This document shows positions 26,900 to 45,013 of a stretch of 64,000 nt of DNA, piece by piece (the first letter of the stretch is position 1; the number at the start of each line of letters is the position of its first letter). The stretch is from NCBI RefSeq assembly GCF_000425145.1, contig NZ_AULF01000012.1, positions 1-64,000 of the forward strand, read 5' to 3'. Source of the DNA: Pedobacter glucosidilyticus DSM 23534 (GTDB lineage Bacteria; Bacteroidota; Bacteroidia; Sphingobacteriales; Sphingobacteriaceae). Made by a program: the position numbers and the translations under genes. The notes beneath the pieces are model-generated. The model made no database searches. It was not told the origin of the DNA and was given only the letters and a program-made list of their open reading frames with translations.

Positions 26900-26986
26900 T
26901 TTGAGACAGCCTACTAACACACTAACCAATTTATTTTATTTGAAGAAGATATAAAGTATCTCTTTAATTTCTTGATCTTAAAAAAA

Positions 26987-27015
26987 GAGGCAGTCTTGAT
27001 GGGCAAGACCGCCTC
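26987..27015 (-). terminator. Intrinsic terminator of the carbonic anhydrase gene (unit 2)
   Basis: GAGGCAGTCTTG and CAAGACCGCCTC form a 12-bp stem with one mismatch and a 5-nt loop. On the minus strand it is followed by TTTTTT, making a good intrinsic terminator. The equivalent hairpin in unit 3 (27117-27145) is degenerate and that in unit 1 is interrupted, so this copy is probably the working one. It can also stop plus-strand transcripts from the kinase, though the tract there is poor. Confidence 0.7.
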
Positions 27016-27159
27016 TTAACACTTAACTAACTTATCGCATTTATTTGGAGTATGAAGAAGATTTATCTTGCTCTTTAAAACTATTCTTTGGTATCTCTTT
27101 AGCAGAACTTAAAAAAGAGGCAGTCTCGCTTATCAAGACCACCCCTATAACACACTTAA

Positions 27160-27942
27160 CTAACTTTTCTTTTTTACTTTATGCTGAGGAAGATTCAATA
27201 AAGTCTCCTGTAAAAATTCTACTTTACCTGTATGTATATCATAAACGGCACCTACAATTAAAATCTCTCCTTCTACATACTTTTTATGTAAAATAGGTTC
27301 TAAATCTCTTAAATGATTTACTTGTTCAATTACATTTTGACGAACTGCGTTATTCACAGGATCGCCCGGTAAATGCGCACATTTGGCAACTGCCGGTTTT
27401 ATATCATTAATAAGGGTAACAATATGCCCTGGTACATTTTCTGGTCTTTGTACGGCTGCTGCTACTGCCCCACACTCGGTATGCCCTAAAACTACAATGA
27501 GTTTTGTATTAAGCTTTAAGGCAGCAAACTCCATACTTCCATAAGACGCAGCTGCCGAAACCTGCCCTGCCGTACGGATGATAAATAAATCTCCCAAACC
27601 CTGATCAAAAATAACCTCATTGGGCACTCTAGAATCAGAACATCCTACTATGGTAGCAAATGGCTTTTGTCCGTTTTCTAATTCTTTAATGGTTTGTGCA
27701 TCTTGTCTTGGCTTAATACTTTTACCTTCAACAAATCTTTTATTACCGCCCATTAACTTCTTTAAGCCTAGGCGTGGGTCGGCATAGGCAGAATCTCTGT
27801 TGATAACATAATGCTCTGCTCGCCATTTTACCGAATCTATTTTAGCAACTACTTTACTACTGCTTTTTCTATTGGATTGTGCTTGTACACTTAAACTTGC
27901 TATAAACAAGCATATTAAGGTGATATAATAATTGATTTTCAT
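27160..27942 (-). CDS. Periplasmic beta-class carbonic anhydrase
   Basis: A 260-residue zinc enzyme interconverting CO2 and bicarbonate. A clear signal peptide (1-22, ends SVQAQ) puts it in the periplasm, unlike most bacterial beta enzymes. The beta-class zinc site is complete: C101 and D103/R105 in GCSDSRVP, and H154 and C157 in GHTECGA. GDLFIIRTAG is the conserved block following the first ligand. It is the last gene of a tight cluster (31 bp after the LRR gene, 40 bp from there to the SPFH gene), followed by tandem terminators. The neighbours suggest an envelope-linked role, perhaps pH or bicarbonate supply, but that is inference. Confidence 0.93.
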   Translation of the reverse strand: MKINYYITLICLFIASLSVQAQSNRKSSSKVVAKIDSVKWRAEHYVINRDSAYADPRLGLKKLMGGNKRFVEGKSIKPRQDAQTIKELENGQKPFATIVGCSDSRVPNEVIFDQGLGDLFIIRTAGQVSAAASYGSMEFAALKLNTKLIVVLGHTECGAVAAAVQRPENVPGHIVTLINDIKPAVAKCAHLPGDPVNNAVRQNVIEQVNHLRDLEPILHKKYVEGEILIVGAVYDIHTGKVEFLQETLLNLPQHKVKKKS

Positions 27943-36255: not shown

Positions 36256-37416
36256 ATGTTACATCATAAATACATCCTTTTATTTAGTCGGATATTTGTT
36301 GGTCTCCTTTTTATTTTCTCAGGACTCATCAAATTAAACGACCCTTTAGGTTTTTCTTACAAACTGGAAGAATATTTTGAAGTTTTCCATGTTGTTTTTT
36401 TAAACCCAATTTCAGTCTATCTATCTATCTTTTTATGCGCTCTTGAAGTGGTATTAGGGGTGTTTTTACTAACTGGCATATCTTCTAAAAAGGTAAGTTG
36501 GGGTTTATTGTTATTGATTATATTTTTCACTTTCTTAACTTTTTATTCGGCAGCTTTTGATGTAGTAAAAACCTGTGGCTGTTTTGGTGATGCTATACCT
36601 TTAACACCTTGGCAATCTTTCAGTAAAGATTTAATCTTACTGGTCTTTATCATTTACATCTTCTTTAATAAAGCGCATATTAAACCTGTAGCAACAGAAA
36701 AATCTGGCCGAACAGCCATTATCTCTTTAACCATTGGCTTAACCATATTATTTGGCATCTATACTTATGCCTATTTACCTATTATAGATTTTTTACCTTA
36801 TAAAGTTGGCGCTAATATTCCGGATGCGATGCGTATACCTGAAGGTGCGCCACAAAATGAGTATGAAATTATCTATACCCTAAAAAACAAGAAAACTGGC
36901 GAGCAACAGGAAATGAGCGATAAAAAGTATCTGGAAACTAAAATTTATGAAAATCCGGATTGGGAGTTAATCAGTTCATCAGAACCTAAGCTTATAAAAC
37001 AAGGCTATCAACCAAAAATAAGCGATTTAAATATTTACGATTCGCAAGGTGTAAGCTATACCAAAGAGTTGGTAGAAAACCCATACTACAATTTAATTGC
37101 GGTTGGTTGGAAGTTAGATAAAACTAATAAAAAAGCTGCTGGAGATATTAATGCTTTGGCTATAAATGCTGCTGAAAATTTTAATATCCGTACGGTTTGG
37201 CTAACAGCAAATTCTGCTACAGATGCCGAAAAGTTTATCAAAGAAAATAAATTGGTAATGGAATTTTTTTATGCCGATGCTGTACCGCTTAAAAGTATGG
37301 TAAGGGCTAATCCGGGCTTGATTCTACTAAAAAATGGTACTGTAATCAATAAATGGTCATCTAATGCTTTGCCCAATTATAACCATTTAGTAGAACAATA
37401 CTTCAGTAAAAACTAA
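36256..37416 (+). CDS. BT_3928-like membrane protein (DoxX-type plus thioredoxin-like part)
   Basis: A 386-residue inner membrane protein. Four to five helices of DoxX/MauE type make up about residues 1-175 (GLLFIFSGLIKLNDPLGFSYK at the start, VVKTCGCFGDAIPLTPWQSF in the middle, with a Cys-x-Cys pair). The rest is a soluble domain (NPYYNLIAVGWKLD, LKSMVRANPGLILLKNGTV) with a thioredoxin-like fold but no CxxC. DoxX-type proteins handle electron transfer to quinones or redox of thiols. It is 18 bp after DUF1599 and 2 bp before aroK, so it is clearly part of that operon. Function is not established. Confidence 0.8.
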   Translation: MLHHKYILLFSRIFVGLLFIFSGLIKLNDPLGFSYKLEEYFEVFHVVFLNPISVYLSIFLCALEVVLGVFLLTGISSKKVSWGLLLLIIFFTFLTFYSAAFDVVKTCGCFGDAIPLTPWQSFSKDLILLVFIIYIFFNKAHIKPVATEKSGRTAIISLTIGLTILFGIYTYAYLPIIDFLPYKVGANIPDAMRIPEGAPQNEYEIIYTLKNKKTGEQQEMSDKKYLETKIYENPDWELISSSEPKLIKQGYQPKISDLNIYDSQGVSYTKELVENPYYNLIAVGWKLDKTNKKAAGDINALAINAAENFNIRTVWLTANSATDAEKFIKENKLVMEFFYADAVPLKSMVRANPGLILLKNGTVINKWSSNALPNYNHLVEQYFSKN

Positions 37417-37418
37417 AG

Positions 37419-37937
37419 ATGAAAATATTCTTAATAGGTTTTATGGGTTGCGGAAAATCCAGAATGGGTAAAAACCTTTCGGCCAAAATAAACCGCCCTT
37501 TTATAGATTTAGACACTTTAATAGAAAGTACACAGCATAAAACTGTACCTGAAATTTTTACTGAACTAGGTGAGAATGGTTTCAGAGAAATTGAGTGTGA
37601 TTTACTGCAAAATAGCGCTATTGCTGATGACGCTATAATTTCTACCGGTGGTGGTGCGCCTTGTTTCTTTGATAATATGGATTGGATGAACGCCAATGGG
37701 CTAACCATTTTTATTGACCCACCTGTTAAGGTTTTAGCAGATAGATTGATAAACGCCAAAACCGAGCGCCCTTTAATAAAAGGTAAAAGCTTTGATGAGC
37801 TGGTTTTGTTTGTTGAAGATAAACTAAAAGAACGCAGACCTTTTTACGAGAAAGCACAAATTTCTTTACATGGAGTGAGCTTAACACCAGAAATATTACT
37901 AGAAGAACTAGAGAAAAAAGGTATTAAACTGGTTTAA
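37419..37937 (+). CDS. aroK: Shikimate kinase
   Basis: A 172-residue kinase that phosphorylates shikimate in the chorismate pathway. Motifs: Walker A GFMGCGKSRMGK, shikimate-binding FIDLDTLIE with its Asp, GENGFREIE with the conserved Arg, and STGGGAPC. The lid region is AKTERPLIKG, and the adenine-binding part lies in the C-terminal ERRPFYEKA. Length is standard. It starts 2 bp after the BT_3928-like gene and closes the operon; beyond it begins a degraded region. Confidence 0.94.
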   Translation: MKIFLIGFMGCGKSRMGKNLSAKINRPFIDLDTLIESTQHKTVPEIFTELGENGFREIECDLLQNSAIADDAIISTGGGAPCFFDNMDWMNANGLTIFIDPPVKVLADRLINAKTERPLIKGKSFDELVLFVEDKLKERRPFYEKAQISLHGVSLTPEILLEELEKKGIKLV

Positions 37938-38006
37938 GCCAGTTATTATCTAATAATATTTTCACATGCATAGGATACATATTTTACACCTTCAATTTAG
38001 GAATTC

Positions 38007-38170
38007 CATAAGGATAATGTAATGCTGCCCTAAAGGGGAAATATGTTAGCTTTTTTTGATAAAATTCATTACATAAATCCTTTTGAACAACTCTTCTTGC
38101 TACTAAAGTAGTAATGTCAAGATTATTAAAGATAGCTGTTTCCTCATCAGCAGATCTTAGGTAAATATCT
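38007..38170 (-). pseudogene. Relic of a GH10 xylanase 3' end with a 120-bp deletion
   Basis: Bases 38007-38170 align with 41588-41871, the C-terminal coding part of the lipoprotein xylanase, at roughly 84 % identity by eye. The only length difference is one 120-bp deletion with junction at a TATAAA that is repeated exactly 120 bp apart in the intact gene (41653-41658 and 41773-41778). This fits slippage or recombination between the two TATAAA copies. The relic ends abruptly at both sides, so it cannot encode a working enzyme. Confidence 0.85.
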
Positions 38171-38511
38171 ATCTGCTGATAATCCTTTCATGTGGACAAA
38201 AAAACATAGTCATGAAATCCCTGTAATAAAGCTACAAAAAAGGTCATTGCGCTTGATTCTGAGCTTCCAAAAGCAAATTAAAGTCTTTCATACAGGGCTT
38301 AATAAAGTATTAAGGTTTGTTAAAAGCCGCTACTGACATGGCTAAACCAGCATAAATGTTCTATTTATTCCAAATTGGGACCCTTCCCAAAAAACAGGAA
38401 CAATCTCATAGAAAATCCAAGCTTTATTATTCGTTTATAGGTTTAAGACTTTGTATTTTTATTAAATAAACTATTTAATTATGGATTTTTGATTTTTTAG
38501 CTATAAAAGCG

Positions 38512-38603
38512 GAAGTATTTCAAAAATTTTTATAGCTATTACAGTAGCAAAATCAGGAATAAAAGCTGTTTTAATTCAAGACCGTTCAGCTACCATGGTA
38601 TAA
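38512..38603 (+). pseudogene. Fragment of an FAD-dependent oxidoreductase
   Basis: The plus strand reads ISKIFIAITVAKSGIKAVL followed by IQDRSATMV and a stop. This matches the Rossmann segment of FAD-dependent oxidoreductases frequent in Bacteroidota glycan loci, which usually reads SGIKVALIQDRPVLGG. The preceding GxGxxG is degraded and the remainder is lost or frameshifted. Recognition rests on one short motif, so confidence is moderate. Confidence 0.5.
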
Positions 38604-38742
38604 TCATACAGACATATTTATCTTGGGTAAATACAGAAAGGGAAATTACCAAATCATGAAAAACTTATGAGTAGATATTCTGAATTAAAAAGCCATCAAT
38701 GAATGTTCTAGCCACAATTTGTTGGGTTTTAATTTACAATTA

Positions 38743-41298
38743 ATGTATAAAAAAATGATGAGATTACTAACTATATTTTTAATTGCTGGACTTTTAAAAA
38801 CGGATGCCTATGCAGCTGTATCAGATACTATTTCTTTAAACGGTATCTGGAAATTTAAAACAGACCTTTATAAAAATGGCGAGCAGCAGAAATGGTATGA
38901 TCCTAATTATTCAAAAGACAACTGGACAGGGATGGAAGTTCCTGGTAATTGGGATTTAAAGAATGAATTTTCTGACTATACAGGGGATGCTTGGTATAGT
39001 TTTACTTTTAAAGCCAATAACAGCTGGAACAATAAACATATAAGATTGGTTTTCGAATCTGTTTATAATGATGCTGAAGTTTGGCTTAATGGTAATAAAA
39101 TTGGTGAGAACCATCTTGGTTTTCTTCAATTCTATTTTGATATTTCCAAACAATTCATAAATGGCGAAAAAAATGAAATTGTCGTAAAAGTTAATAATGT
39201 ATTTAAACGTGGTGCTATTTGGAATTGGGGTGGTATTAGAAGGCCGGTTTGGCTAGAAATTACCGAACCACAACGAATTAATAGAATAGCTATAACCACA
39301 AATCCAGATTTAATAAAGCAAATAGCTACTGTTAATGTTAAAGCAGCAATTGCTAATTATTCCATCAAGCAATCAGAAATATCTTATAGTCTGGAGATTC
39401 TTTATCAGAATAAAAGTATTTACAATTCTGGTATCCCAAAGCCTATTGCTCTAAATGGTGGCGATAGTATAATACTATCAAAAGATGTAAATTTAACTAA
39501 AACAAATACTCATTTATGGCATTTTGATCATCCAGAATTATATACTGCAAAAGTGGCTATATATGAAGGGAAACAATTATTACATGTTTATAAAGATAGG
39601 TTTGGTATAAGAAAAATAGAAGTTGATGGTTTAAAGTTAAGGCTTAACGGAGAAGAGATCAGACCCGTTGGTTTCAATCTGGTACCTGAAGATCGAATTA
39701 CTGGAAATACACTTCCATTTGATAGGATCAAGAAAATGGTAGACATGATGAAAGAAGCCGGAGCCAATATGGCAAGACTGAGCCACATGTCTCTACCTAA
39801 AGAATTTCTCGATTACTTGGATGAAAAAGGTATCATGATCTTCGAGGAAGTGTTTCTTTGGGGAAAGGACGCAATGGTAGACCCTTCACATCCACTACCA
39901 AAATTATGGCTAGAAAGATTAATCCGTCAAGAGTATAACCATCCTAGTATAATTGGATGGAGCGTAGGTAATGAAATAGGCTCTTTAGATAAAAATCCCT
40001 TAGCCAACGAATATATAAAAGTAGCTATAGAAAATGCTAAAAAATTAGATCCCCATAGATTGGCTGTTTATGTTTCAAACTCTGTATCCGTACAAGCAAA
40101 TGACGCTTCTCAATATAGTGATTTGATTATGCTAAATAGTTATAGTAATTGGGTAAAAGCTGCGGAAAAAGCTCATGAATATTTTCCAGATAAGCCGATA
40201 TTCTTCTCTGAATTTGGTGAGAATTTAACTACCGAAGATCCTAACGAGTCTATTATCGATTTCAATAAAATGTTAAAGGGAATTAAAGGTAAAGATTATA
40301 TTATAGGAGCTTCATTATGGACATTAAATGATTATAGAAGTAGTTATTGGTCGCCAAGAAAAACATGGGAAACCCTCCCTTCACAAAACAGAACCTGGGG
40401 CGTAGTTAATACTTTTCTTCAAAAAAAGAAAAGTTACGCCGCTATTCAGAAAGCTTATTTACCATTTTCTTTAGTCAATTTAACTTATTCAGTGATAAAC
40501 AATAAAGCTTCAGGCAAAATTACCTTAAAGGTGAATGAAAAATTGGATTTTCCAGCCTATCAATTAAAAGGATACCAAATTCTAGTAAAGGCTTTAACGT
40601 CTAATCGAGTTACACAAAATGCAGTAATTAAACTCCCATTATTAAGTCCTGGGGATGCAAATAAAACTTTTAATTATCAAATCAATCTATCAGAAGAATC
40701 AACAGCAGTTAAAATTAGCTTATCAGATCCTCAAAATTATTCACGATTTGATACTACCATATACATCAAAGAACCTTTAGATGTAATTATGAAATCTGTT
40801 CATACCAGTGCAGATGCAGCAAGAATTGTTTTTGAACCAAATCCTTCTGCAACACATTATACCCTAAAATATGGTATCGATAACCTGGAAAAGGAAAGTC
40901 TTGCAACCATTAACAATTTTGTACAGATTAATAATTTGAAGAGCAAAAGCAATTATCAGTTTCAGATTTTGGCGCACAACAATAAAGGAATCAAGGCTAC
41001 AGAAATCAACGAATTTAGTTTAGATGAGGATGAATTACCTCCCATAATTTGGGCAGTTGAACCTGTAAAGAATGGCTTTTTTGTATCGTTTTCTGGTAAT
41101 TCCCAAGATTACAGATACGAGATAAAATTTGGCGAAGAAGCTGGTAATTATACTAAACACCTAACCTTTAACAATTATGGTGTAATACAGATACCTGATT
41201 TGGATTCTTCAAAAACCTATTTTTTCAAACTTAGAAGAATTGTACAATGGGGGTTTGCAAGTGAATGGACAAATGAAGTTAGAGTAAAACCATTATAA
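38743..41298 (+). CDS. GH2 beta-glycosidase with fibronectin III-like C-terminus
   Basis: About 851 residues from the preferred start at 38743, which gives a signal peptide ending DAYA; the open frame begins at 38719. The GH2 order is complete: jelly roll (WKFKTDLYKN, WTGMEVPGNWDLKNEF), Ig-like domain, TIM barrel with acid/base E411 in IIGWSVGNEIGS and nucleophile E490 in IFFSEFGENLT. The last 190 residues (APNP-like VFEPNPSATHYTLKYG, KSNYQFQILAHNNKGI) look like two fibronectin type III domains. Likely beta-galactosidase, beta-glucuronidase or a xylan side-chain enzyme. It converges on the xylanase gene and shares a terminator region with it. Confidence 0.85.
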   Translation: MYKKMMRLLTIFLIAGLLKTDAYAAVSDTISLNGIWKFKTDLYKNGEQQKWYDPNYSKDNWTGMEVPGNWDLKNEFSDYTGDAWYSFTFKANNSWNNKHIRLVFESVYNDAEVWLNGNKIGENHLGFLQFYFDISKQFINGEKNEIVVKVNNVFKRGAIWNWGGIRRPVWLEITEPQRINRIAITTNPDLIKQIATVNVKAAIANYSIKQSEISYSLEILYQNKSIYNSGIPKPIALNGGDSIILSKDVNLTKTNTHLWHFDHPELYTAKVAIYEGKQLLHVYKDRFGIRKIEVDGLKLRLNGEEIRPVGFNLVPEDRITGNTLPFDRIKKMVDMMKEAGANMARLSHMSLPKEFLDYLDEKGIMIFEEVFLWGKDAMVDPSHPLPKLWLERLIRQEYNHPSIIGWSVGNEIGSLDKNPLANEYIKVAIENAKKLDPHRLAVYVSNSVSVQANDASQYSDLIMLNSYSNWVKAAEKAHEYFPDKPIFFSEFGENLTTEDPNESIIDFNKMLKGIKGKDYIIGASLWTLNDYRSSYWSPRKTWETLPSQNRTWGVVNTFLQKKKSYAAIQKAYLPFSLVNLTYSVINNKASGKITLKVNEKLDFPAYQLKGYQILVKALTSNRVTQNAVIKLPLLSPGDANKTFNYQINLSEESTAVKISLSDPQNYSRFDTTIYIKEPLDVIMKSVHTSADAARIVFEPNPSATHYTLKYGIDNLEKESLATINNFVQINNLKSKSNYQFQILAHNNKGIKATEINEFSLDEDELPPIIWAVEPVKNGFFVSFSGNSQDYRYEIKFGEEAGNYTKHLTFNNYGVIQIPDLDSSKTYFFKLRRIVQWGFASEWTNEVRVKPL

Positions 41299-41433
41299 GT
41301 CTTGTAAAACATTTATAATAATTCAATCAAGTATAAAATATCAACATATAATGTAATACTTAACTTTATAGCAGCTGCGAATCTCTTAAAATCTACAGTA
41401 AAATGGACTGAGAAAGAGCCTATTTGTAAGCGT

Positions 41434-41470
41434 AAAAAAAGCAAGCATTTTTTACATTGCTTGCTTTTTT
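41434..41470. terminator. Bidirectional terminator after GH2
   Basis: GCAAGCA (41441-41447) pairs with TGCTTGC (41458-41464), flanked by A7 on the left and T6 on the right. It ends the plus-strand GH2 transcript, 136 bp after its stop, and can act on minus-strand read-through from the xylanase. Confidence 0.8.
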
Positions 41471-41529
41471 ATGATGAATGAAGAAAAATTATCTACAAAC
41501 ATTTAAATATCACATGTATTATTTTAAAC

Positions 41530-41561
41530 AACAGTGAGCGCACTCAGAAACACTCACTGTT
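41530..41561 (-). terminator. Hairpin directly after the GH10 lipoprotein gene
   Basis: AACAGTGAG (41530-41538) is inverted at 41553-41561, loop 14 nt, starting 7 bp after the xylanase stop. On the minus strand it is followed by TTGTTTAAAATAAT, a weak tract. Confidence 0.55.
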
Positions 41562-41567
41562 TAAATG

Positions 41568-42809
41568 CTATGGATTTAATAAAACAGCATAAGGATAATG
41601 TAATGCCGCTCTAAAAGTATAGTAAGTTGGCTTTTTTTGATAAAATTCATTGTATAAAGTTGCTTCCTCTTTTAAACCTAACCAAGAATCTTTATCACCA
41701 ACGTTCCATAAAGTTATTCCCCAACGCTGTCCTATAGGAACAAGCTCTTGATAAGCCCTTGCAACTTTATAATATAAATCCTTTTGAACAACCCTTCTTG
41801 CTGCTAAAGTAGTAGCATCAAGATTGTTAAAAATAGTTGTATCCTCATTGGCAGATCTCAAAGAAATATCTAATTCAGAAATATGCACAAGTAACCCTGT
41901 AGTAGCCATTGAACTTATAGCACTTCTTACCTTAGCTATGGGAGTATTCCATTTAAGATGAAACTGCATTCCAATACCATTAATAAGAGGATCTCCTCCT
42001 TCTTTAATACTTCTTAATCTTAGAACTTTACTTCTAATAGAATCTAATTTTACTGTTTCCCATTCATGGCCATAATCGTTGTAGAATAATTTTAATCCAT
42101 AATTACGATTAGCCCTAGCAGCTTGGCGAGCAAATCGATATGCTGAATCAAGATAACTATCACCTAAATACTTATGCCATATACTTCCAGGGTCGTTTCC
42201 ATTTGGCAAAGAACGAAAATTTCCATTATCTCTTAATGCTTCATTAACTACATCCCAAGATTTAACAAGAGGAACGGAACCATTTTTGTAATTATTACTA
42301 TAATATGTAATAGTTTTGAAAATGTGTCTTTTCATAATGTTCTTCAAAGTATCAGCTTTGGCTGATGAACTAATTGGTAAATTATCTACATCAGACACAA
42401 AAGTAGGTAGACCCGCATGCCATATTAAGGTGTGCCCATGAATTCTTTTATTACCATTTAATTGTGCTGAATCTGGTATTCTAGAATTAGTCCCAACAAA
42501 GTTCCATGTAAATTTACTAGGATTTAAGGCTTTCATCTTCATCTGAAACTCTGCTGTAACACTATTATATTCCTCTCTAGCTCTTTTAGAATATAATGAA
42601 TCATTAAAATAACTCGTATTTAAGGCAACCCCTATTATAACGTTTTGATCAACATCCTTCAAAAATTCCGGAATAGAATCTGTAGTTTCATTAGTAGTTG
42701 TCACCATTTTTTGTGATGAACCTGTTTTGACTTCCTCTTTTATAGAACTTTTTTTACATCCGTACGAAAAGAGACATAAAACAATTATTATTCTTGATAA
42801 AACTTTCAT
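41568..42809 (-). CDS. GH10 endo-beta-1,4-xylanase, lipoprotein
   Basis: A 413-residue surface lipoprotein (lipobox YGC after LCLFS) that cuts internal beta-1,4-xylose bonds. GH10 motifs are HGHTLIWHAGLPTF, WDVVNEALRD with acid/base E190 and HISELDIS with nucleophile E312. WGITLWNVGDKDSWL near the C-terminus is the usual final beta-strand. No extra binding domain is attached. It is the last gene of the unit CBM protein - GLUG protein - xylanase. A relic of a close paralogue lies 3.5 kb away at 38007. It is only remotely similar to the two GH10 enzymes at 60090 and 61723. Confidence 0.93.
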   Translation of the reverse strand: MKVLSRIIIVLCLFSYGCKKSSIKEEVKTGSSQKMVTTTNETTDSIPEFLKDVDQNVIIGVALNTSYFNDSLYSKRAREEYNSVTAEFQMKMKALNPSKFTWNFVGTNSRIPDSAQLNGNKRIHGHTLIWHAGLPTFVSDVDNLPISSSAKADTLKNIMKRHIFKTITYYSNNYKNGSVPLVKSWDVVNEALRDNGNFRSLPNGNDPGSIWHKYLGDSYLDSAYRFARQAARANRNYGLKLFYNDYGHEWETVKLDSIRSKVLRLRSIKEGGDPLINGIGMQFHLKWNTPIAKVRSAISSMATTGLLVHISELDISLRSANEDTTIFNNLDATTLAARRVVQKDLYYKVARAYQELVPIGQRWGITLWNVGDKDSWLGLKEEATLYNEFYQKKPTYYTFRAALHYPYAVLLNP

Positions 42810-42898
42810 ATTTTAAATTTAGATGTGAATAAATACTTCTGAGTGTTCATAATTTACTAAAGCCCGTTAGAGCCGCTGATAAACGTATTTAGAATATA

Positions 42899-45013
42899 TT
42901 AAAGCTTAATTATTTTCTTAGAAACTAAACCGTTTTTTCCTGATAAACTAATATTATAATAACCACTTGAATATTCCCTCATATCAACAATCTTTACATT
43001 ATCATTTGGTCTAAGTTCAATTCTTTGCAAAATCCTTCCAGAAAAATCATATAAGATAAGCTGATTAAACATAGATTCTTGAAAGGAAATTGTTAAATAT
43101 TCATTCGTGGGATTAGGATAAGTAGTAATTTCTTCTTTTTCAAGGTCAAAACTTATAACTTTATATCCAAGATTTTCTATCGAGCCATCATTATCTACTT
43201 GAATTAGTTCATAGTAATTATTCCCTGGTGCTGGTTTATCGTGAATAAAAGAATAGTTATTAATTTGATTAGAAAATTCTGAAGCATTTATCTTTCCTAT
43301 TTCAATAAAATTCTTAGCATCTGTACTGTGCTTAATAATAAATTCTTTATTGTTATTTTCTGATAACGTAATCCATCTTAATTCTACCATATTTGATAAA
43401 GCTTTTGCTGTAAAACTTTTTAATACAATAGGTAAAGTAGTGTAGCTAAAAGAAGGATATCCGTTATTCAAAGAATTATCAATGGTCCAATAGTCATTAG
43501 ACCCATTTGCTGTTTCGCCTGTGAAATCCCAACTTGCACTTGTATAAGTGAGTTGTGTTTTCATTTCTGCGGTTGTTTTACCGGTTCCGGTACCCATAGC
43601 ACTTGTGATTAAACCACTAGTTTGTGTATCCCAAAAACAATTGGTTATTACTGCAAAGTTATAAGTTGAAAAACCCCCACGGTTTGCAGTTACTGCTCCG
43701 CCAGCTACAGAACCAGTTGAATAACAATTTATAAAAGAAAAATTACTATTTAAAACAGATCCCCTTATACGGCCAACAAAGCCAGCAACTCCAATATTAG
43801 TACCATTATTACTTGGTGCCGTAACATTTCCCTTAGCGTAACAATTTTGGATAGATCCTATCACGTCTGGATTTATAGCACCAACAAACCCACCTAAGGA
43901 GCCTTGTGTCGTCGCTGTTAAAGTTGCAGAACCTGTTGCAAAACATAAAGAAATAGTAGGTGAGCCAAGTAAATTTCCTATTAAACCACCACAGTTCCTT
44001 CCAGAACCTGTAACATTACCGGTCGCTTTACTTTTAGTAATTGTTGAAGTACCGGAGACATCGCCTATTAATCCGCCACAACTAGCTGCTCCAGAGCCAT
44101 CGGCAACACTTCCAGAAGCAGTAGTTGCCCCAGATGCGCTACAATCTGATAATGTTACACTAATAGCTTGTCCTAATAAACCTCCTACAGAAAATTGGCC
44201 TGATATTGCCCCATTAGCATAACAATTAGAAATATTTGTATTAATATTTGCGAACCCTACTAAACCTCCTATTCTCTCTCCAGAACCGATGACAGTTCCT
44301 GTTGTATAGCTATTTCTAATAAAACCAGCAGTGCCTACAGTCAGAACTGATGTTTCTCCAATAAGGCCTCCAATTCTGTTCACTCCAGTTACATTAGCTG
44401 TAGAGTAGCAACCATCTATATTATTGTTAGATGATATACCTATCAAACCGCCTGTTGATGAAGTTGAAGCAGCATTACCAGTTACAGTACCGGTAACATA
44501 AACATCATTAACAGTACCTATAGCTGTACTGATACCATCCCCAAGTCTACCAGCTAATCCACCAACCAAGCCCCGACCAGTTATACTTACAGCCAATAGT
44601 CCTAAATTACTAATTGATGAACCATTAGCAAAACCAAAAAGCCCTTGATAATCTGTATTGGGTCTATTAATATTTATACCACTAATTGTACGGTTATTCC
44701 CATTAAAGTTTCCTGTAAATTTTGTTGTGGCATCGCCAATGGGTAGCCATCCCGTATTAGTATTAGCTGTAGATGAGGCGTAGGTAGCATAGTCTGCACT
44801 GTTTTCGTCTAAACTGTTTATCAAAATGTAATTTGCGCTTAAGTTTAATCGAACATTACTGAGCTGCTCCCATGTTGTAATTTGATAAGGATCACCCATA
44901 GATCCTGTTCCGCCTGCATATTGAGCTTTTACTTTTTGAGTTAAAGCAGTTAAAAGTATGCTAGCCACTATAAAAAGCTTGGCACTCAATTTAAAATGTA
45001 TTAATCTTTTCAT
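42899..45013 (-). CDS. Secreted GLUG-repeat protein with T9SS sorting domain
   Basis: A 704-residue protein with signal peptide (ends KVKAQ). The start AGGTGSMGDPYQITTWEQL is the usual opening of GLUG proteins, and about ten GLUG repeats follow (about 100-470), with glycine-rich units such as RIGGLIGETS, SVGGLLGQ and CGGLIGDVSGT. A fibronectin-like or linker region with PIVLKSFTAKALSNMVELRW precedes a C-terminal T9SS type A domain (YPNPTNEYLTISF, SGYYNISLSGKNGLVSKKIIKL in two parts). GLUG proteins are usually adhesins or substrate-binding proteins. Context suggests xylan or cell-wall binding at the surface. Confidence 0.85.
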   Translation of the reverse strand: MKRLIHFKLSAKLFIVASILLTALTQKVKAQYAGGTGSMGDPYQITTWEQLSNVRLNLSANYILINSLDENSADYATYASSTANTNTGWLPIGDATTKFTGNFNGNNRTISGININRPNTDYQGLFGFANGSSISNLGLLAVSITGRGLVGGLAGRLGDGISTAIGTVNDVYVTGTVTGNAASTSSTGGLIGISSNNNIDGCYSTANVTGVNRIGGLIGETSVLTVGTAGFIRNSYTTGTVIGSGERIGGLVGFANINTNISNCYANGAISGQFSVGGLLGQAISVTLSDCSASGATTASGSVADGSGAASCGGLIGDVSGTSTITKSKATGNVTGSGRNCGGLIGNLLGSPTISLCFATGSATLTATTQGSLGGFVGAINPDVIGSIQNCYAKGNVTAPSNNGTNIGVAGFVGRIRGSVLNSNFSFINCYSTGSVAGGAVTANRGGFSTYNFAVITNCFWDTQTSGLITSAMGTGTGKTTAEMKTQLTYTSASWDFTGETANGSNDYWTIDNSLNNGYPSFSYTTLPIVLKSFTAKALSNMVELRWITLSENNNKEFIIKHSTDAKNFIEIGKINASEFSNQINNYSFIHDKPAPGNNYYELIQVDNDGSIENLGYKVISFDLEKEEITTYPNPTNEYLTISFQESMFNQLILYDFSGRILQRIELRPNDNVKIVDMREYSSGYYNISLSGKNGLVSKKIIKL

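Follow-up and report, generated by a model that had tools for sequence, protein, structure and literature searches.

Deletions between short direct repeats are classically ascribed to slippage or alternative end-joining, and xylan polysaccharide-utilisation loci of Bacteroidota combine SusC/SusD, HTCS, GH10 and GH3. A large share of the pseudogenes in prokaryotes stems from truncated genes within acquired DNA, and those attributed to failed horizontal transfer are truncated, internally deleted gene copies (PMC522871, Liu et al. 2004). The locus described here, in a window of 64,000 nucleotides (the whole stretch of Pedobacter glucosidilyticus DNA that was analysed, positions 1 to 64,000 of contig NZ_AULF01000012.1), can be compared with all three. 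It lies at one end of an island that, like the xylan loci, carries SusC, SusD, a hybrid two-component regulator, three GH10, GH3 and two GH2 genes, together with CstA and lipoproteins, but that has no recognisable integrase, is bounded by an 11-bp direct repeat and is eroded at one end. As among the failed-transfer pseudogenes, the gene copies at that end are truncated and internally deleted; the difference is that four different genes have been compacted into 0.8 kb with junctions that can still be read, and otherwise nothing is new. As in short-repeat deletions, two junctions show repeats of 6-7 bp, whereas a third has no clear repeat, and the mechanism is putative. We regard the case as ordinary pseudogene decay by small deletions, unusually legible but not of a new kind; it leaves general views unchanged and offers a worked example of a polysaccharide-utilisation island eroding at its edge by small repeat-associated deletions.

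The GH10 relic and its intact sister

The features of the relic and of the gene with which it was compared are as follows.

38007-38171, minus strand: relic of a GH10 xylanase paralogue (blastn, collinear alignment)
37985-38006 (approximate), minus strand: the relic's own 3' end and stop, reading GIPKLKV before the stop codon (translation)
38065-38077, no strand: junction of the 120-bp deletion, with CATAAA; a TATAAA direct repeat in the intact gene (blastn, alignment)
41568-42809, minus strand: intact GH10 lipoprotein gene, the relic's sister (Pfam GH10, E 2e-62; alignment)

A blastn comparison of 37400-39000 with the window aligns 38007-38077 with 41588-41658 (84.5% identity, E 1.9e-16) and 38062-38171 with 41763-41872 (82.7%, E 9.1e-27), E-values by which chance or low-complexity similarity was rejected. 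The two blocks are collinear and overlap by 16 bp, and their offsets of 3581 and 3701 place a gap of exactly 120 bp in the relic, which thus consists of codons 313-346 joined to about 386-408 of the neighbouring gene. At the best split 140 of 165 bp are identical (84.8%), and the translated match has an E-value of 5.6e-9. In the intact gene the gap is bordered on either side by TATAAA (TGTATAAAG / AATATAAAT), of which the relic has a single copy, as CATAAA, the parent in this comparison being the sister gene and not the true ancestor. In all these points the original prediction, which had noted the equal lengths apart from one 120-bp gap, the TATAAA at its ends and an identity of about 84% judged by eye, agrees with the blastn offsets and the measured alignment; the alignment with 41568-42809 that it proposed gave significant collinear similarity, with no further indel in the 165 bp. 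The similarity ends sharply at about 38171 and, near the 3' end, at about 38003; the relic's last codons have no similarity to those of the intact copy, and the stretch has no other match anywhere in the 4.02-Mb genome.

The 40 residues missing from the relic are present in all 12 aligned GH10 homologues and include conserved GH10 residues. The opposite polarity, an insertion of 120 bp into the intact gene, is refuted by this distribution; we found no point in its favour and rate its probability as practically nil. The gap is a deletion in the relic, since all twelve homologues carry the segment.

On the minus strand the relic has an open frame that extends from a point upstream of the match as far as the relic's own TAA, ending in QKDLCNEFYQKKLTYFPFRAALHYPYGIPKLKV before the stop, and its translation is IDIYLRSADEETAIFNNLDITTLVARRVVQKDL-CNEFYQKKLTYFPFRAALHYPYGIPKLKV followed by the stop. 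The 120 bp were lost in frame, as had been predicted, and they include RWGITLWNVGDKDSW, a conserved barrel segment. The relic starts just past the nucleophile Glu of ISELDIS, so that no catalytic Glu remains, and both VVNEA, with the acid/base, and WGITLWNVGDKDSW are missing; the roles of the two Glu residues follow what is generally known of GH10 and the alignment to a solved xylanase A. With significant GH10 homology, loss of catalytic residues and fold, and no full-length frame, the relic is a GH10 pseudogene. The 120-bp deletion alone would probably inactivate the enzyme, and the earlier claim that truncation elsewhere killed the copy sets an order of events that the data do not support.

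The relic and the intact gene have in common an insertion around IFNN and a HYPY tail that are absent from nearly all homologues aligned, and by these shared features they are sisters; no GH10 in 399 family genomes is as close to either of them as they are to one another. An intact close paralogue, of the kind that the original prediction had proposed to look for in another strain, was not found in these 399 genomes (best match 54% at the amino acid level), nor was a second intact copy elsewhere in the 4.02-Mb genome; among the contigs of named relatives, only distant Hymenobacter and Rufibacter matches were obtained.

Over the 58 aligned codons the differences between relic and intact gene number 7, 8 and 16 at codon positions 1, 2 and 3, a few junction bases being counted twice. 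When the same number of changes was placed at random, a third-position count this high arose in 1.7% of trials (P about 0.017), and the frame stayed open, as it has in the stop-free relic, in 11%; from 58 codons this is a weak signal, to which selection on the intact branch adds third-position bias. As a check on neutral evolution of the relic, the 7/8/16 pattern and the absence of stops are likewise drawn from few codons and from a divergence that includes the functional period. NG86 and YN00 give dN of about 0.12-0.13 and dS of 0.57-0.66, and the ML estimate of dS, 1.44, is far from these values. Because of the third-position excess and the open frame, much of the divergence probably built up while both genes worked; that most of it did so is suggested rather than proved, and if so, the 84% dates the duplication and not the decay. 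The identity had been offered as a rough clock, a use that the third-position bias and the dN and dS values speak against, and in similar cases caution is due, as the divergence of a relic from its sister is not equal to the age of its decay.

Scraps of other genes between aroK and the GH2 gene

The original prediction described the relic correctly and did not see that scraps of three more genes make up most of what remains of 37944-38758. Four gene scraps, the relic among them, lie close together in the roughly 800 bp that separate aroK from the GH2 gene. G010, G012 and G013 below are three close relatives, G000 is the host genome and G008 is a further genome of the sample.

38160-38250, plus strand: scrap of an LnbY/SurA-like chaperone gene (blastn, 79% nucleotide identity to contig 28 of G010, E 3.2e-15)
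38253-38368, plus strand: 3' end of the chaperone gene, running into the convergent end of rhaM (blastn, 75%, E 2.0e-11, contig 28 of G010)
38491-38585, plus strand: N-terminal scrap of an FAD-dependent oxidoreductase gene (Rossmann motif region), frameshifted (65% nucleotide identity to G008 L108 1501-1593)
38643-38758, plus strand: C-terminal scrap of the FAD oxidoreductase gene, with 3 in-frame stops (64% nucleotide identity to L108 3625-3738, E 2.5e-5)
38755-41298, plus strand: intact GH2 gene (Pfam GH2 domains)

When 37938-38742 was searched at the DNA level against the genus, the first two stretches matched contig 28 of G010. These chaperone scraps correspond, in the same order, to the middle and the end of a G010 gene of 198 aa with weak similarity to the lacto-N-biosidase chaperone LnbY (the reference ORF matches NCBIfam LnbY at 7.8e-6), and about 267 bp have been lost between them; a protein match over 38148-38312 has an E-value of 1.1e-6. 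The GH10 and chaperone scraps are joined over AAATATC, which is present in both parent sequences, and the edges of the chaperone's internal deletion show no clear repeat. The rhaM gene, encoding L-rhamnose mutarotase (Pfam 4.1e-29 in the reference), is represented by its last codons, nothing more of it being matched in 38360-38520. No match was obtained for 38369-38490, some 120 bp that separate the rhaM scrap from the first FAD scrap. Pfam and NCBIfam searches with the scraps themselves gave no meaningful match, as expected for 60-90 residues.

The FAD scraps were assigned from 64-65% DNA identity across some 210 bp: the 38491-38585 piece has a local score of 27 against the G008 gene, and a 281-base stretch reaches 29, where 300 shuffles reach 21 at most. 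About 2 kb of the oxidoreductase body is gone between the two. In G008 the FAD oxidoreductase gene lies directly upstream of the orthologue of the GH2 gene (65% amino acid identity), and in the window the FAD ends lie in the right order directly upstream of GH2 (likely start ATG 38755/38758, the ORF opening at TTG 38719), in the same arrangement; the adjacency in G008 is therefore independent support for the assignment. The GH2 gene of the window is itself intact and has lost its former oxidoreductase partner, and the scraps explain why it stands without the gene that lies upstream of its orthologue in G008. In two loci, L132 8108-12954 (G008:C11) and L133 4333-10860 (G000:C8), genes for FAD oxidoreductase and GH2 adjoin or lie near each other, which suggests a conserved pair.

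Because the FAD scraps carry stops and a frameshift while the flanks are 2-4% diverged from G010, there is a hint that this gene was decaying before the island arrived; it is only a hint, since the 64-65% identity of the scraps is about one standard deviation below the 70.0% of the GH2 orthologue (sd 6.2, 105-bp windows).

The island and its boundaries

The scraps lie just inside the left boundary of the island, whose features are as follows.

37944-64000, no strand: in-window part of the xylan-utilisation island, 30.1 kb at contig positions 37944-68034 (relatives' alignment break, gene content)
37933-37943, no strand: left 11-bp direct repeat TTTAAGCCAGT, containing the aroK stop codon
68024-68034 of the contig, outside the window: right 11-bp direct repeat TTTAAGCCAGT

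On the aroK side, collinearity with G010 (97.8% DNA identity) and with G012 and G013 (90%) holds up to 37944, where the alignment breaks, and the genes that follow aroK in the relatives resume here from contig position 68036. All three relatives have an empty site, at which the repeat is present as a single copy in G010 and G013 and with one mismatch in G012. At exactly this point aroK and a convergent cytochrome-b5-like gene overlap at their stop codons in the relatives, and the 11-bp repeat leaves both genes intact. The scoring of empty sites covers close relatives, as aroK was not seen beside this neighbour gene in more distant species.

The host genome and G010 are each other's closest, and as the site is empty in G010 and in the G012/G013 branch alike, gain of the island in the host lineage is the simplest reading. 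An island ancestral at aroK and lost from the three relatives through deletion between the 11-bp repeats would yield the same empty site, but such a loss is required in both branches, together with a repeat that by chance lies exactly where its loss leaves the two stop codons overlapping; we consider it quite improbable.

Gain also bears on the picture drawn in the original prediction, of a locus that once had a second xylanase copy next to aroK. The paralogue relic is confirmed, but an original place next to aroK is not supported: in the three relatives aroK abuts a different gene, and the relic lies within an island that they lack. A resident xylanase locus, older than the rest of the cluster and decayed in place, would agree with the position of the scraps on the aroK side of the cluster; it is nevertheless highly improbable, given that in G010, G012 and G013 nothing separates aroK from the overlapping cytochrome-b5-like gene and that the scraps are inside the inserted segment. 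The relic copy came with the island or decayed inside it, and is not an old neighbour of aroK.

The island shows the flanking direct repeats and empty site expected of an integrative element but no mobility gene, neither integrase nor transposase being present among its Pfam-scanned ORFs. A neat 30-kb insertion with an 11-bp repeat at overlapping stops, and no mobility gene, is the least ordinary part of the locus, and it has ordinary explanations in a lost integrase or illegitimate recombination. It is a long shot that entry used an integrase-less or since-lost recombination route targeting the palindrome-like convergent-stop overlap AAACTGG-TTTAAG-CCAGTTT, duplicating 11 bp and keeping both stops, with the eroding left end as the former site of the mobility gene.

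An imported flanking tract was also considered and set aside, as no clear tract appears and the flanks, though patchy, are on either side mostly nearest to G010. Immediately beyond the right end of the island, at contig positions 68034-68090 (C9), several bases are more like G012/G013 than like G010, otherwise the closest. In G013 aroK itself (L057 3317-3831) is in two overlapping frames, residues 1-84 and 82-172, which reflects either a sequencing error or a frameshift in a gene that should be essential.

Origin of the relic

Taken with the island boundaries, the scraps very probably identify the relic as the remnant of a once complete second GH10 gene, one of four scraps at the left, aroK end of a horizontally acquired island, shortened and joined through a series of deletions, of which at least two fell at 6-7-bp repeats, and now an unselected residue for which no function is expected. 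The island would once have carried second GH10, chaperone, rhaM and FAD oxidoreductase genes at one end; one deletion after another would then have removed these genes until some 0.8 kb of ends and middles was left, and at least two of the deletions, at TATAAA and AAATATC, would fit slippage or end-joining. The gene was presumably whole and functional before, and at least part of the decay may have preceded the entry of the island into the lineage. The scraps would once have formed one cluster, an ancestral order (intact GH10 by chaperone, rhaM, FAD and GH2) that is seen in no genome of the sample.

That only C-terminal codons remain in the relic, and that the 399 family genomes hold no intact close paralogue, would also fit a fragment copied from 41568-42809 as a partial duplication that was never a whole gene. 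We consider this unlikely, because the relic has a distinct 3' end and stop, its divergence is third-position-biased with an open frame, and the adjoining scraps, too, are parts of other genes that were whole, all of which favours the remnant of a complete gene.

Searches around the relic returned no RNA families in 37000-43000, no Bacteroidota-type promoter motif (TTTG...TAnnTTTG) in 37901-39000, and no excess of sigma-70-like or terminator-like sites over shuffles. Elsewhere in the window, 26981-27036 and 27111-27169 form a short direct repeat, imperfect at 81%, close to the end of the gene at 27160-27942.
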